DNA of 57,639 nucleotides from Fibrobacter succinogenes (GTDB lineage Bacteria; Fibrobacterota; Fibrobacteria; Fibrobacterales; Fibrobacteraceae), in the NCBI GenBank assembly GCA_902762795.1, contig CACWPM010000023.1, forward strand, positions 1 through 57,639, read 5' to 3'. This document shows positions 33,529 through 39,159 of this stretch, piece after piece (the first letter of the stretch is position 1; every line of letters begins with the position of its first letter). A program made the translations under genes and the position numbers. The notes beneath the pieces were generated by a model. The model was not told the origin of the DNA. It did no database searches and saw only the letters and a list, made by a program, of their open reading frames with translations.

Positions 33529-34983
33529 CTATCCTTTGATTTCCCAGGTCGTGCCTTCCTTGGAGTCCTTGATGACCACGTTCATCGCGGCGAGTTCGTC
33601 GCGGATGCGGTCACTTTCGGCCCAGTTCTTGTTGGCACGGGCTTCCTTACGGGCGGCAATCAGCGCTTCGATCTTCGCGACATCCACGCCGTCGTTTGCG
33701 CCCTTCTTGGCGTATTCTTCACGAGGCTGGTCGAGCTTCAAGCCGAAAATCTGGTCGAAGTCGGCCACCAGGGCGGCCTTCTCACCGTCGTCGATATCGC
33801 TCTTGAGCATCGTGTTCATGATGCCGAGTGCCCGCGGCATGTTCAGGTCGTCGCCGATGGCTTCCTTGAACTCGTTCTGGAAAGCCTTGGCGGCATCGCT
33901 CGTAATCGCGGTGGCCTTGCCGATCAGCGGGTCCGTCTTCTTGTGCAAGCTCTTGAGGCCTTCCTTCGCGCCTTCCAGGGCTTCCCACGTGAAGTTCAGG
34001 TAGTTGCGGTAGTGGCTGCCAATCGCGAAGAAGCGGTAGTCGAGCGGATTGAAGCCACGGTCCATCAAAAGCGTGACCGTCAGGAATTCGCCACTGGACT
34101 TGCTCATCTTGCCAAACTTGGTCTCGGTCGTGCCGTCTTCCAGCTTTTCTTCGCTTGCGGTGCGGAGGAATTCGCCGTGCATCCAGAAGCGGGCGAACTG
34201 CACGCCGTTGGCGCATTCGCTCTGGGCGATTTCGTTCGTGTGGTGCACGCGGATGTGGTCGGTACCGCCGCAGTGAATGTCGAGCGTCGGGCCGTTGTAC
34301 TTCATGGCCATGGCGGAGCATTCAATATGCCAGCCGGGGAAACCGACGCCCCACGGGCTGTCCCATTCCATGGCGCGCTTCTTGTCCTTCGGGCTGAACT
34401 TCCACAGAGCAAAGTCGGTGGCGTTCTTCTTTTCGCCCATGTCGATGCGGCTACCCTTGCGCAGGTTTTCCACGTCGAGTCGGGCGAAGTCGGCGTAGCG
34501 CGGGAACTTGAGGCTATCGAAGTAGATGCCGTCGCTGGTGCGGTAGGTGTAACCCTTTTCTTCCAGGGTCTTCACCAGGTCAATCTGTTCCTGGATGTGC
34601 TGCGTGGCAGGCGTCCAACGGGTCGGTTCCTGGATGTTGAGACGGTGCCAGTCGGCCATGAAGGCGTCGGTGTAGAACTTCGCGATGTCCCAAACGGACT
34701 TGCCTTCGCGGGCGGCGCCCTTTTCCATCTTGTCGTCGCCGGAGTCTGCATCGCTAGTGAGGTGGCCCACGTCGGTGATGTTCACGATGTGGTTCACCTT
34801 GTAGCCGTAGTATTTGAGCGTACGGACTAGGAAGTCTTCGAAAATGTAGGTGCGGAGGTTACCGATGTGGGCGAAATGGTACACCGTCGGGCCACAACAG
34901 TACATGCGCACGGCGGGAACGCCTTCCGGGAGAGTGAATACTTCTTTCTTGCGCGATGCGGTGTTGTAGAACTGTAGAGCCAT
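33529..34983 (-). CDS. cysS: Cysteinyl-tRNA synthetase
   Basis: A 484-residue class I synthetase charging tRNA-Cys. Motifs: YCCGPTVYHFAHIGNLRT with a zinc-ligand Cys and the HIGN signature at ~39; the second zinc region GWHIECSAMAMKY and CGGTDHIRVHHTNE; and KMSKSSGEF at ~291. The DALR-type helical C-terminus is present. A GGAGG Shine-Dalgarno precedes the ATG, and a full Bacteroidetes-type promoter (35028-35059) lies upstream. Length is typical. Confidence 0.95.
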   Translation of the reverse strand: MALQFYNTASRKKEVFTLPEGVPAVRMYCCGPTVYHFAHIGNLRTYIFEDFLVRTLKYYGYKVNHIVNITDVGHLTSDADSGDDKMEKGAAREGKSVWDIAKFYTDAFMADWHRLNIQEPTRWTPATQHIQEQIDLVKTLEEKGYTYRTSDGIYFDSLKFPRYADFARLDVENLRKGSRIDMGEKKNATDFALWKFSPKDKKRAMEWDSPWGVGFPGWHIECSAMAMKYNGPTLDIHCGGTDHIRVHHTNEIAQSECANGVQFARFWMHGEFLRTASEEKLEDGTTETKFGKMSKSSGEFLTVTLLMDRGFNPLDYRFFAIGSHYRNYLNFTWEALEGAKEGLKSLHKKTDPLIGKATAITSDAAKAFQNEFKEAIGDDLNMPRALGIMNTMLKSDIDDGEKAALVADFDQIFGLKLDQPREEYAKKGANDGVDVAKIEALIAARKEARANKNWAESDRIRDELAAMNVVIKDSKEGTTWEIKG

Positions 34984-35027
34984 TTTAGCCTCCGATTAAA
35001 TGCGGCGCAACATGCGCCAAGCGGGAG

Positions 35028-35059
35028 CAAAGATAGTAAAAGCCGAATGCCGCGGCAAA
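35028..35059 (-). promoter_or_regulatory. Bacteroidetes-type promoter of cysS
   Basis: On the minus strand TTTG (35056-35059), a 20-bp spacer, then TATCTTTG (35028-35035). This fits the Bacteroides consensus TTTG-N19-21-TAnnTTTG exactly and is the best example in the window. The leader is about 40 nt and has a Shine-Dalgarno. Confidence 0.6.
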
Positions 35060-35185
35060 AGTGTGCAAGGTTCAAAAGCGCGAAAATTCATTTTTGCATT
35101 TTTGAACCGCCGCTACGGACGCCTGTACGAAACTTGCCACTTTAGTGGCTTAGTTGAGTTATCCTCTTTGGGGAGAAGGCGTCAA

Positions 35186-35261
35186 AAGGCGAGAGTCGCG
35201 CCAATGGCTTAAAAGCCAATTGGCATGACCGAGCCGTGCTATATACACTCCAAAAGAGTGC
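35186..35261 (-). repeat. Two-hairpin covarying repeat, copy B
   Basis: On the minus strand: hairpin 1 GCACTC-TTTTG-GAGTGT (35245-35261); linker ATATAGCACGGCTCGGTCATG read in two parts; hairpin 2 CCAAT-T-GGCTT / AAGCCATTGG with a bulged T (35201-35223); tail CGCGACTCTCGCCTT (35186-35200). A partial relative lies just to the left (35100-35145: GCCACT-TT-AGTGGC hairpin plus GGCGTCCGTAGCGGCGGTTC). Apart from these, 34984-35374 holds only the cysS promoter. Confidence 0.7.
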
Positions 35262-35374
35262 ATATTTAGAAATTTTTAGGTCGGACGGCAATTGTACGGG
35301 GGCTGATTATTCGTTATGATTTTGGCTAAGGGTGTTTTGGATGGGCTTGGTGCTGATTTAGGGAGGGGGGGGCT

Positions 35375-35660
35375 TTTACGTACTTATTGGTGCTTTTGTG
35401 GTTTTCTAGTACGTAATATAAATTTGATTAATTTGTTTGCTACGTACTGAAGGCGCTGAAATAGTGTACTAAGTATGTAAAAAGAAGGGCGCAAGCGGAA
35501 TTTTGTTTCGTCTCGTGTTCGATGTGAGTTCGGTTTACGTACTGGAGGTATTGTTTTGTGTGGGTTAGTACGTATTTGCGGGCGATTGCGCAAAATTGGT
35601 TCTCTAAACTTTTGATTTTTACGTACTAACACCTTTTATTAAGCTTGCTTAGTACGTAAA
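35375..35660. repeat. Left array: four TTTACGTACT-N23-AGTACGTAAA units
   Basis: Four units, each a 10-bp left arm, exactly 23 nt, and an inverted 10-bp right arm: 35375-35417, 35439-35481 (right arm AGTATGTAAA), 35534-35576 and 35618-35660. Unit starts are spaced irregularly (gaps of 21, 52 and 41 nt). A G8 run (35365-35372) directly precedes the first unit. The inner 23 nt differ between units but are T-rich in the middle on the plus strand. The matching array is at 36739-37023, on the other side of the nuclease gene. Confidence 0.9.
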
Positions 35661-35685
35661 TGGTTACTAAGGGGTGTTTTTCCTG

Positions 35686-35722
35686 CCGCAAAATGCTTTT
35701 GCTTGCAAACGGTTGTTTGCAA
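35686..35722. repeat. Inverted repeat half and hairpin before the nuclease gene
   Basis: CCGCAAAATGC (35686-35696) has a perfect inverted partner GCATTTTGCGG at 36696-36706, so the pair brackets the nuclease gene inside the two arrays. Next to it, TTGCAAAC-GGTT-GTTTGCAA (35703-35722) is a perfect 8-bp hairpin. Confidence 0.6.
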
Positions 35723-35781
35723 AATGAAGGGCTCAAGTGTTTTTTGTGCGTTTGGTCGAAAGTTTATTGTATTTTATCCGC

Positions 35782-36612
35782 ATGAAAATAAACGATGAAT
35801 TAATACTACATGATGAACTTGTTAGGTTTGCTCGACATCGGATTAAGGAATTGACACGAGGTTTAACGCATATTCAAGCGGACCTCCGCAATGCTCCTTT
35901 AGAAAATCTAAGAGTTGTTCACTGCCATAATTCTATTCAATACCATTTGGTCTCTGACGAGAATAAACCGAATGGAATTTATGTGAATAAGAAAATGTTG
36001 AAAAAGGCGGCTGCTGTAGCGCAACGGGATTATTATAGAACGGTCTCTGATGAAATTCAAAAAGAAATATCCGCTATTGAAAATTTTTTAAGCGAGTATC
36101 ATCCGGAACGAGTTCAGACTGTTTATCAGACCTTGAATGTTGGACGACGAAAATTGGTGAAAAACGTTTTTGTCTCAGACGTAGATTTTGTATCGTCATG
36201 GAAATCGGTGACGTATGAACGACCGGCTTTTCTTGAAAATTCGCCGGAATATTTTACGAACAATGGGCTTCGGGTGCGTTCTAAATCGGAAATCATTATC
36301 GCAAATCAGCTTGTTCGCTCAAAGATTCCGTTCCGTTACGAGGCTCCGTTAACGCTGAATTCGGAAAAACGTAAAGTTGTTGTGCATCCTGATTTTACTT
36401 GCTTGAATGTTCGGACGCGAAAGGAGTTTGTATGGGAGCATTTTGGAATGATGAACGATGAAAATTATGTAGAAAATGCGCTTGGTAAAATTCACCTTTA
36501 TTCAGCAAATGGACTTATTCAAGGCAAGAATTTTATTGCAACGTTTGAAACGTTGGCAAATCCACTTTCTGTGAAAATTGCTCAGCAGTATATTGAGCAG
36601 TTCTTGAAATAG
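35782..36612 (+). CDS. PD-(D/E)XK nuclease-like protein flanked by repeat arrays
   Basis: A 276-residue soluble protein. Residues ~165-260 carry a likely PD-(D/E)XK core: RSKSEIIIANQL (acidic residue ~169), HPDFTC (Asp ~203) and FVWEHFGMM (Glu ~219), followed by Lys and Tyr positions in the next helix. Residues 1-150 form a helical N-terminal region (QYHLV, VNKKMLKKAA, AQRDYY). I know this overall layout from uncharacterised proteins of gut Firmicutes, not as a named restriction enzyme. The ATG at 35782 has no Shine-Dalgarno; TATTTTAT ends 4 nt before it. It is a lone gene, 121 bp from the left array and 126 bp from the right one. It may be a defence or mobile-element nuclease. Confidence 0.6.
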   Translation: MKINDELILHDELVRFARHRIKELTRGLTHIQADLRNAPLENLRVVHCHNSIQYHLVSDENKPNGIYVNKKMLKKAAAVAQRDYYRTVSDEIQKEISAIENFLSEYHPERVQTVYQTLNVGRRKLVKNVFVSDVDFVSSWKSVTYERPAFLENSPEYFTNNGLRVRSKSEIIIANQLVRSKIPFRYEAPLTLNSEKRKVVVHPDFTCLNVRTRKEFVWEHFGMMNDENYVENALGKIHLYSANGLIQGKNFIATFETLANPLSVKIAQQYIEQFLK

Positions 36613-36738
36613 GAGTTGTTTTGTGCCGCGTTTCTGAAACCCTAAATCGTACACGCGGGGATGGGGGGGGGCGGCTTGTTGGTTCGGGGTAAGTGGCATT
36701 TTGCGGAAAACTGTGGTGAAAAATAGGAAGTAGGGCTT

Positions 36739-37023
36739 TTTACGTACTTTAAGCCTTGTTTAGGGGGCTGAATACGTAAAAAATTTTAAGAACATTTGTA
36801 TGTTACGTACTAAATGGCAATTTTGTGTTCATGCAGTACGTAAATTTCGGTGATTGTGAAATTTTGAATGCTAAAAGTTCAAAAAATTACGTACTGACTA
36901 TGTTTTTTGGGGGCTTCTAGTACGTAAATTTGATGCATCCCGCCTGTAGAACATCAAAATAGTGTGAAAAACTCTAAAATTTACGTACTAAATGAGGCTT
37001 TTCTTCGGGCTTTGGTACGTAAA
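36739..37023. repeat. Right array: four TTTACGTACT-N23-AGTACGTAAA units
   Basis: Units at 36739-36781 (right arm ATACGTAAAA), 36802-36844, 36886-36928 and 36980-37023. The first three have 23 nt between arms, the last 24 nt. Before it, 36613-36738 contains a G9 run (36663-36671) and GCATTTTGCGG (36696-36706). After it, 37024-37149 is AT-rich leader of the next gene. The units are in the same form as in the left array. Confidence 0.9.
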
Positions 37024-37149
37024 ATCTCGTGAAAATGTAAAAAAAGTATTTTTTTTTCAACCCCGTTGTTTTGGCTTCAACGGAAATTCAGCGACAATGG
37101 GCTCTATTTGTGAGAATAGAATTTATATTAGACAAAAATGGAGTGCGCA

Positions 37150-39159
37150 ATGAAATTAATGAAGTTGGCAGTGGTTGCTGCATCAGCTATTTTGTGCTTT
37201 GTGGCTTGTTCTGATGATAATGGTTCAATTGGAGGTCCCGACAATGGAGGGATTTCTCCCATAGAGTCTTCTTCTAGCAGTGAAGTTCTAGGAAATGAAA
37301 GCTCAAGTTCTAGTGAAACCGTTCCTGGCATTGATGTATCGAGTTCTAGTGAAGTCGTTCCTGGCCAAGAATTCTCAAGTTCAAGTAGTGTTGTTCCTGG
37401 TACGGGCGTTTCTAGTTCCAGTAATAAAGTTCCAGGCAAAGAAGTTTCTAGTTCTAGCAGTAGGGGGCCAAACAACAAGTTTTCCAGTTCTAGCAAAGTA
37501 GTTCCTATCAGTTCATCTTCGGTTGACGATGAAAACGACAACGAAGATTCGAGAACTTTGGATGGCTCGCAAATTCTCCTAAAGCTTTCGGGAACGTCGG
37601 CTACCGTGGAAAATAATAACGGCTGTGTCGAGGTTGCTGATAAAAGTGCGACCATCACCTGTCCGGGCGCCTATTACATCACTGGCGAGTCATCTGACTT
37701 CCAGGTGGTTGTGAATACTCCGGCGGCCGAAAATGAAGGCAACACAGGCATTTATCTTTATAACGCGACTTTAAAGAGTTCTGACGCCGCGATTCTTGTG
37801 AAAAACGCCGACAAGGCGGTTCTCCATTTGGTCAAGGGTACGACTAATGTGGTAGAAGACGGCAATGGCAAACACTTGTTTACCAAGATCAATGGAACTC
37901 AGGATACCGCAAAGGCCGCAATTTATGCCAGGGATGACTTGAACATCAAGGGCGCAGGCTCTTTGACTGTCAAAGGCAAGTTCAAAAATGGCATCCAGTG
38001 CAGCAACGACCTTAAAATCAAAAACGGCAACATTACGGTGGAAGCGGAAGAAAACGCCATCAAAGGCAAGGGTAGCCTCCAGATTTCGGGTGGAACCTTG
38101 AACCTTACCGCTAAAAAGGGTGATGGTCTTGAAAGCGATGAATGCGAAGAAGTCAACGGTAAATGCAAAAATGTCATCGATGGCAAGGGCATTGTGGATA
38201 TTCGTGGTGGTAACATTACAATCAAGGCGGGCGATGATGGCATTGATGCCGCTAACTTTGTAATTGTTAGCGATTCTACGGAAAAGTCTACCCTCAAAGT
38301 TACTTCTACGGGCAAGGGTATGGTTGCCGAGAAATTCATATATATTAACGGTGGTGCCGTTAACGTGACCGCCGATGACGATGCAATGCATACAAAGTAT
38401 AAAGTCTTCATGAATGCTGGTGACGTGACTGTTTCTTCGAAGGATGACGGCATTCATGCGGATTCCGCGTTGTATTTGAAGGGTTCCACAATCAATGTCG
38501 TTACGGCATCTGAAGGTTTGGAAGCCTACAGGATTTTCGCTGAAGGTGGCATTACCTCTACGTTTGCGACTAATGACGGCTGGAATGGTGCCGGTGGTGC
38601 CAAGGAAAATTCTGGCGGCTATTCCATGTTTAGCGAATCGAGTGGCCATATTGTCGTTAGCGGTGGCTATCATTATATCAGTGCAAAAGGCAGTATGATT
38701 GATGTCTTTGATGCAAACGGCTCTGGCAAGCAGACCGGTGGTGTATTGATTTTGGAAATCACCGGAGAAAGCTATGAAAATGGCATGGGCGGTGGTGGCC
38801 AGTGGGGTGGCGGCGGCCAGTGGGGCGGCTTCCCAGGCGGTGGCATGGGTGGTGGCATGGGCGGCGGCGGTGGCTGCTCCGAGAATATGGCTGGCGGCCT
38901 TATCGATACGGATACCGGATTTGAAATTACCGGTGGAGTCCTGCTTGCATTTGGCAACTATTCGACAAACCTTCCCAAGTGCGCTTCTGTCACCTATACA
39001 AGCGATAATTTCTATGGTTCTGATAAGGCTGCTTTCAAGCCGCAATACAAGGGCAATACGATTATTTACGGTGGCGAAGTGACTTCCGTTGCTCAAGTCC
39101 AAACAAGCGGAATGAAGGAACTCAAGTTCCCGAACGGCTTGGTGTACATGTATAAGTAA
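37150..39159 (+). CDS. Carbohydrate-binding beta-helix lipoprotein (Cthe_2159-like)
   Basis: A 669-residue lipoprotein. The ATG at 37150 (GGAG at 37141-37144) gives a signal ending CFVACSD. Residues ~25-130 are a Ser linker of about seven repeats (SSSSSEVVPG-like, period about 15 residues). From ~140 a right-handed beta-helix repeats motifs such as AAIYARDDLNIKGAGSLTVKG and IDGKGIVDIRGGNITIKAGDDGID. This fits the DUF4353/Cthe_2159 family, which binds cellulose or polygalacturonate with calcium. A Gly-rich insert (GGGQWGGGGQWGG, ~545-580) interrupts the C-terminal part. Probably displayed at the cell surface for plant-fibre binding. Confidence 0.82.
   Translation: MKLMKLAVVAASAILCFVACSDDNGSIGGPDNGGISPIESSSSSEVLGNESSSSSETVPGIDVSSSSEVVPGQEFSSSSSVVPGTGVSSSSNKVPGKEVSSSSSRGPNNKFSSSSKVVPISSSSVDDENDNEDSRTLDGSQILLKLSGTSATVENNNGCVEVADKSATITCPGAYYITGESSDFQVVVNTPAAENEGNTGIYLYNATLKSSDAAILVKNADKAVLHLVKGTTNVVEDGNGKHLFTKINGTQDTAKAAIYARDDLNIKGAGSLTVKGKFKNGIQCSNDLKIKNGNITVEAEENAIKGKGSLQISGGTLNLTAKKGDGLESDECEEVNGKCKNVIDGKGIVDIRGGNITIKAGDDGIDAANFVIVSDSTEKSTLKVTSTGKGMVAEKFIYINGGAVNVTADDDAMHTKYKVFMNAGDVTVSSKDDGIHADSALYLKGSTINVVTASEGLEAYRIFAEGGITSTFATNDGWNGAGGAKENSGGYSMFSESSGHIVVSGGYHYISAKGSMIDVFDANGSGKQTGGVLILEITGESYENGMGGGGQWGGGGQWGGFPGGGMGGGMGGGGGCSENMAGGLIDTDTGFEITGGVLLAFGNYSTNLPKCASVTYTSDNFYGSDKAAFKPQYKGNTIIYGGEVTSVAQVQTSGMKELKFPNGLVYMYK

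Follow-up and report, generated by a model that had tools for sequence, protein, structure and literature searches.

A family of predicted nucleases accompanied by helically phased, probably cognate inverted-repeat arrays in Fibrobacter and other bacteria

A gene of Fibrobacter succinogenes that lies between two arrays of inverted-repeat units raises the question of what reads these units and what they do for the genome that carries them. The window, which is the whole stretch of 57,639 nucleotides that was analysed, contains eight such units, four on each side of the gene, and the features of the locus are listed in Table 1. The arrangement is real and far beyond chance: units with at most three mismatches over both arms occur eight times in positions 34001-38500 and not once in 300 first-order Markov controls, and single arms with at most one mismatch occur 16 times across the window, where 2.8 are expected.

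Table 1. Positions of the protein-coding features and of the inverted-repeat units, numbered from the first letter of the window.
Feature	Position	Strand	Remarks
276-aa protein, undescribed family	35782..36612	+	N-terminal helix/beta-hairpin/helix, C-terminal PD-(D/E)XK-type domain (predicted); no Pfam match
Predicted beta-hairpin, codons 42-57	35905..35952	+	Best candidate arm reader, from the model, arm covariation, a natural exchange and same-arm versus different-arm pairs
PD-(D/E)XK-type nuclease domain (predicted), codons 156-276	36247..36609	+	E170, P203-D204 and W218-E219-H220 invariant, K236 nearly
Unit 1, upstream array	35375..35417	.	TTTACGTACT-N23-AGTACGTAAT
Unit 2, upstream array	35439..35481	.	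GCTACGTACT-N23-AGTATGTAAA, 3 arm mismatches
Unit 3, upstream array	35534..35576	.	N23
Unit 4, upstream array	35618..35660	.	Perfect arms, N23
Unit 5, downstream array	36739..36780	.	N22
Unit 6, downstream array	36802..36844	.	N23
Unit 7, downstream array	36886..36928	.	N23
Unit 8, downstream array	36980..37023	.	N24

The first-pass annotation of this DNA had correctly described four units per side and no arms elsewhere in the window; no further units are found there, and dozens are dispersed in the rest of the genome. Its claim of seven 23-nt spacers and one of 24 nt does not hold, as six spacers are of 23 nt, one is of 22 nt and one of 24 nt. The gaps between units, given as 21-58 nt, are 21, 52 and 41 nt upstream and 21, 41 and 51 nt downstream, and the upper end of the claimed range therefore fails. 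The idea that the units are freely spaced also fails, since the centre-to-centre distances of 64, 95 and 84 bp upstream and 63.5, 84 and 94.5 bp downstream correspond to 6.1, 9.05 and 8.0 and to 6.05, 8.0 and 9.0 turns of 10.5 bp, respectively. Two other features adjoin the locus. Just 5' of the array, at 35185-35245, there is a second, unrelated Fibrobacter intergenic repeat (GGCGAG-GTCGC ... GACCGAGCCG), which recurs in many intergenic regions, at times in tandem, and is also seen at loci L172, L184 and L187. Directly 3' of the array, at 37138-39159, there is a lipoprotein-like open reading frame with a long serine-repeat linker.

This phasing is a property of the whole family of arrays. The 206 unit spacings measured in Fibrobacter fit a period of 10.50 bp best (R 0.948; the largest value in 2000 uniform controls is 0.234), and the 135 spacings outside Fibrobacter again give 10.50 bp (R 0.876; null maximum 0.322). 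The A/T content, calculated for 55 Fibrobacter and 36 other seed families and separately for the TTACGTACT units, oscillates along the unit: it is highest at distances of 0, 10-11 and 21-22 bp from its centre and low at about 4-6, 16 and 25-27 bp. The spacing and the oscillation, both following the helix, therefore point to bent double-stranded protein sites and not to RNA hairpins. That the sites lie on one helix face is very likely, as inferred from sequence alone, in the absence of binding data. Of the two readings offered at the outset, paired protein sites on the same helix face are supported by the 10.5-bp phasing, and a 10-bp hairpin with a 23-nt loop is not, given this phasing and the neutral evolution of the spacers described below.

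In the AlphaFold model of the protein between the arrays (pLDDT 93.5), residues 13-36 form a helix, 42-48/51-57 a beta-hairpin and 70-105 a long helix, and the C-terminal part is an alpha/beta domain. Neither Pfam, NCBIfam nor PHROGs gives a match of note for the protein, Pfam gives none in 30 members of the family, and the PDB holds no sequence relative. The motif residues given in Table 1 are conserved as stated there across 30 diverse members. A structural comparison of the C-terminal domain shows fold resemblance to I-Bth0305I (VIA Z 8.5), TnsA (7.7) and Vsr-like proteins (6.6), and also to Bax1 and VRR-Nuc, and nuclease matches are found among predicted viral proteins. Foldseek on its own returned nothing from the PDB at E below 0.001, so that the assignment of the fold depends on the motif, on these second-look Z scores and on the matches to predicted viral proteins. 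It is very likely that the domain belongs to the PD-(D/E)XK superfamily; this is a prediction from the model and the conserved motif, and DNA cleavage itself is inferred. The likeness to TnsA, I-Bth0305I and Vsr is taken as fold resemblance only, because similar Z values are common; the present family differs from these proteins in having no TnsB or TnsC partner, another N-terminal domain and cognate arrays in the host genome. The N-terminal domain by itself is structurally most similar to helical hairpins (prefoldin, ESCRT-III; Z up to 9), and kinship with these was rejected, the Z values being within the range of coiled-coil chance matches.

The genome of the window (G000; 3.93 Mb, 89 contigs) encodes four further homologs, with six matching stretches in all. 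A homolog is present in 49 of 80 genomes of the genus, with up to eight match rows each, and 31 have none at the cut-off. Beyond the genus, at least 573 relatives were found among 84,980 species genomes; the 80 best-scoring ones belong to Fibrobacter, Treponema, Lachnospiraceae, Butyrivibrio and other Clostridia, mostly from gut or rumen. The gene loci sit among housekeeping genes and no partner gene is recurrent: only the protein itself recurs (76 loci), the next family being found in 6 loci.

Nearly every homolog has an array of the same build with an arm sequence of its own. In Fibrobacter, de novo detection finds an upstream unit family above every shuffled control at 84 of 94 homologs; nine of the remaining ten have a downstream array and the tenth is located at a contig end. 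The arms of this genus include TTACATACTA, GTACCTATAA, GGGGCGTATAA, TAGGACTAAA, TGCTACTAAA and TGGGTACCAAA. Outside Fibrobacter, upstream arrays reach the cut-off at 15 of 19 loci in Treponema, 7 of 9 in Butyrivibrio, 8 of 17 in Lachnospiraceae and 3 of 3 in Clostridia, compared with 2 of 63 control stretches; examples are TACGGACGAA, repeated seven times at 95 bp (L246), and TTACGCGCAA, repeated eight times at 64 bp (L305). In the Lachnospiraceae, roughly every second homolog is without an array that passes this cut-off.

The part of the protein that reads the arm is suggested by a natural exchange. The loci L071 (genome G092) and L072 (genome G079) are 98.5% identical in DNA up to about position -580, are unrelated from there to about +153 and are 97% identical again thereafter. 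The exchanged block spans the array and the first ~51 codons, and the arms differ (GTACCTATAA and GGGCATATAA). When pairs of proteins with C-terminal domains at least 85% identical are compared, the hairpins are 93% identical if the arm is the same and 46% if it is different. The hairpins of proteins with GTACCT arms share LR[IV]D[KR]C[RK] irrespective of the helix 1 that precedes them, and those of proteins with TTACAT arms share NH. Residues 43-54 show the highest partial rank correlation with arm similarity, which is only 0.27. The exchange, the hairpin identities, the shared motifs and the covariation hence point to the N-terminal module, and most likely to its hairpin, as the reader of the arm. 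That the protein recognises the arms of its array is very likely, again on sequence evidence without binding data, and the first-pass inference that the PD-(D/E)XK-like protein recognises the units is supported by the linkage of arm and gene, by arm-specific homologs in three phyla and by the joint exchange of array and N-terminus. The assignment to the beta-hairpin 42-57 is predicted from the model and is held with less confidence, as likely; it rests on the covariation of 0.27 and on exchanges in which helix 1 is replaced as well.

Units also occur away from the gene. Pattern searches requiring exact arms find 44 units with exact 8-bp arms in G000, and those outside the window form arrays of 2-6 units at 13 places, all of which are intergenic, between neighbours that are convergent, divergent or codirectional. 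A common layout of such gene-less arrays is two pairs, with 64-136-64 bp between starts. Three of them (L037, L026 and L027, on contigs C40, C2 and C3) adjoin genes that we take to be bioA/pyrG-like, and next to two of the three are genes that we take to be TIGR02147-like. The proposed search of other genomes for units tracking the homologs was run, and the arms go with the presence of the cognate gene. All four searched genomes of the genus that have the TTACGTACT gene type hold abundant TTACGTACT units, with at most one unit in any other; three or more GTACCTATA units are present in 7 of 7 genomes that carry the cognate gene and in 1 of 73 that do not, and the corresponding figures for TTACATACT units are 10 of 12 and 2 of 68 (Fisher p 1e-6, 3e-9 and 3e-9 for the three arms). 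In a Treponema genome, likewise, three arrays without a gene carry the same arm as the array of the gene in that genome. Units scattered genome-wide without a link to the nuclease family had also been named as a refutation; half of this applies, as the units are scattered, yet they are tied to the presence of the cognate gene.

Two side observations concern these arrays. In genome G087 (C40:51739-52462) a TTACGTACT array is apparently duplicated in tandem within one intergenic region. A short motif resembling ACAAA(C/G/T)TAA recurs beside the units, on the inner side, in TTACGTACT and TTACGGGAA elements (L029, L026, L213, L207), and it is possible that it is a site for a host factor.

Orthologous positions exist in G087 for five of the gene-less arrays of G000. 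The arms at these positions are 96.9% identical (349/360) and the spacers 74.5% (342/459; p 4e-21), the latter being as diverged as the inter-unit gaps (72.8%) and the flanking intergenic DNA (74.3%). Only 2 gap columns are found beside 1517 aligned array bases, versus 38 beside about 1043 flanking bases. The loci were required to have at least one matching unit, which somewhat inflates the arm identity and leaves the indel contrast unaffected. For one array compared with G042, 54 of 54 arm bases are kept without indels while the spacers are down to 52% identity. With arms conserved, lengths fixed and spacers diverging like the flanks, a guide role of the spacers is therefore excluded, as is the idea that the copies are dead; it is very likely that the arms and their spacing are kept by natural selection.

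These results bear on the reading of the units as an RNA-guided, CRISPR-like array of hairpins with 23-nt guide spacers. In its favour are the inverted arms around a variable insert and the nuclease gene adjoining the array. Against it, the units are phased at 10.5 bp, the spacers evolve at the rate of flanking intergenic DNA with their length fixed, and the arms differ between homologs and follow the protein. No Rfam family matches positions 34900-37300, and an excess of promoters or terminators was looked for in the array region and not found. An RNA reading was therefore rejected, and the CRISPR-like version of it is very improbable.

A second alternative is a transposable element, in which the PD-(D/E)XK protein is a transposase-like enzyme, the arrays are subterminal sites and the gene-less arrays are MITE-like non-autonomous copies. 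The TTACGGGAA elements have TIR-like ends (GGAGATAATTTT...AAAATTATCTCC), and within one genome their copies match at 78-86% identity along a stretch of about 300 bp and no further; these copies show past copying and do not show which enzyme copied. The homologs L007 and L134 each lie between directly repeated copies, and the C-terminal domain resembles TnsA and I-Bth0305I. At the glgC-NifU site, arrays are present or absent among close relatives: TTACGTACT arrays are found in G000, G042 and G075, TTACGGGAA arrays of a different layout in G058, G100 and G045, and none in close relatives. The two arm types at this site could reflect either independent insertions or a change in place. However, old gene-less copies are strongly selected in arms and spacing, which is unexpected of dead MITEs; terminal repeats are not apparent around the arrays of the window, nor in the alignment of TTACGTACT elements; no clean target-site duplication was found; and the flanks of many gene loci are shared between species, so that the genes appear to be mostly inherited in place. 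A transposon is therefore considered unlikely.

Also unlikely is a defence or self-marking system, in which chromosomal arrays would hold the nuclease in place and in check, and DNA without arrays, or DNA that disturbs them, would be attacked. The invariant nuclease residues, the patchy presence, the several specificities per genome and the exchange of modules would fit, as would the occurrence of this C-terminal domain at the end of PDC-S68, the candidate defence proteins of PADLOC. Type I restriction specificity subunits exchange recognition modules at a conserved locus, as the array family does. However, the PDC-S68 match, seen in 30 of 30 members, is limited to the last ~126 residues (148-273), the rest of the protein is not shared, the PDC-S68 proteins are about 1200 aa long and the PADLOC model includes no array. 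The loci lie among housekeeping genes, with no cognate methyltransferase or other recurrent partner nearby, which sets the family apart from restriction-modification systems, and unlike Type I systems it has no translocase and exchanges the recognised array together with the reader. The absence of exact TTACGTACT units from 2.9 million viral contigs would also suit defence, but a low count is expected for any rare 18-base pattern.

Viral contigs (L306-L314) encode proteins that share only the C-terminal nuclease domain. GTACCTATA units give 4 single matches in viral contigs, with no surrounding array. A phage origin was rejected on these grounds and on the lack of exact TTACGTACT units.

The arrays could finally be operators or looping sites of a regulator or nucleoid-architecture protein whose nuclease activity is secondary or lost. 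The phasing, the bending signature and the conservation in situ fit regulatory or architectural DNA, and the array is mostly upstream of the gene. Against this, the nuclease motif is invariant in 30 diverse members, the dispersed arrays have neighbours of every orientation (convergent, divergent and codirectional), and many genomes (31 of 80) have no homolog at the cut-off; this reading is also unlikely. The first-pass annotation had left a defence locus, a mobile element and a self-regulated nuclease as possibilities, and the present data do not resolve among the three.

Among described systems the closest likeness is to the REPtron (RAYT/TnpA-REP), in which a gene lies beside cognate inverted repeats that have many copies dispersed in intergenic DNA, and in which the abundance of the repeats tracks the gene, repeat and protein co-vary, persistence is long and conserved arms surround diverse spacers (PMC8266576, PMC8049555). 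The system of the window also has cognate palindromes beside the gene and dispersed between genes, with an abundance tied to the gene. It is not filed under REPtron, because the defining enzyme and tag are absent: the enzyme is of PD-(D/E)XK type and not an HUH tyrosine transposase of the IS200/IS605 kind, no Pfam transposase is found in 30 members, and no GTAG-type tetranucleotide precedes a palindrome of 20-50 nt, the arms varying by family without a common tag. The sites are helically phased with fixed arm spacing, the 10.5-bp phasing arguing for double-stranded DNA where REPtrons recognise folded single strands, and there are several paralogs per genome with different arms, array and N-terminus being exchanged as one block.

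A protein-plus-cognate-array system as a whole is preferred with moderate confidence as the best explanation, without binding or cleavage data. Each protein of the family would read one arm sequence, most likely via a swappable N-terminal module, with hairpin 42-57 on the arm, and the units would be double-stranded sites on one helix face; both steps are strongly supported by sequence. It is further inferred that a dimer may sit on each unit with the DNA bent at the A/T-rich centre, and that neighbouring units may join into one larger nucleoprotein assembly. The gene-adjacent array would probably serve self-regulation and/or loading; the autoregulatory part is inferred only, and against it, about ten Fibrobacter homologs have their array downstream only. 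The dispersed arrays would be extra binding sites, under selection while the cognate protein is present. Among the least certain steps are the control of the conserved nuclease domain by the array-bound assembly, and a REPIN-RAYT-like behaviour on a different enzyme, in which long-lived, mostly vertically inherited cognate sites would occasionally be copied to new intergenic places and specificity modules exchanged between species by recombination. A REPIN-like function, including copying by the protein, is possible by analogy, and copying by the protein is not shown. A bolder reading, also no more than possible, is that protein-only recognition in three phyla, through an exchangeable beta-hairpin and species-specific arms, wraps DNA in phased arrays, and that dispersed chromosomal arrays license or restrain the nuclease, so that they reveal the identity of a genome or element.

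Open-access papers on repeats in Fibrobacter, on nuclease-associated phased inverted repeats and on PDC-S68 were searched and gave no such system, with subscription papers and preprints largely outside reach. Within this scope the earlier remark that no system with this layout is described holds, and the system is likely to be new in kind, neither family nor array having been described, which remains provisional. Because genes, sites and natural exchanges are all available, the persistence of dispersed repeats is directly testable here. If the proposed explanation is true, at least some 25 arm sequences would be tied to a short beta-hairpin by a natural code that is open to testing and perhaps usable for programmable DNA binding, and the family would join REPIN-RAYT as the second case in bacteria, with an unrelated enzyme, of an enzyme class that has its own population of cognate repeats under selection in the genome.
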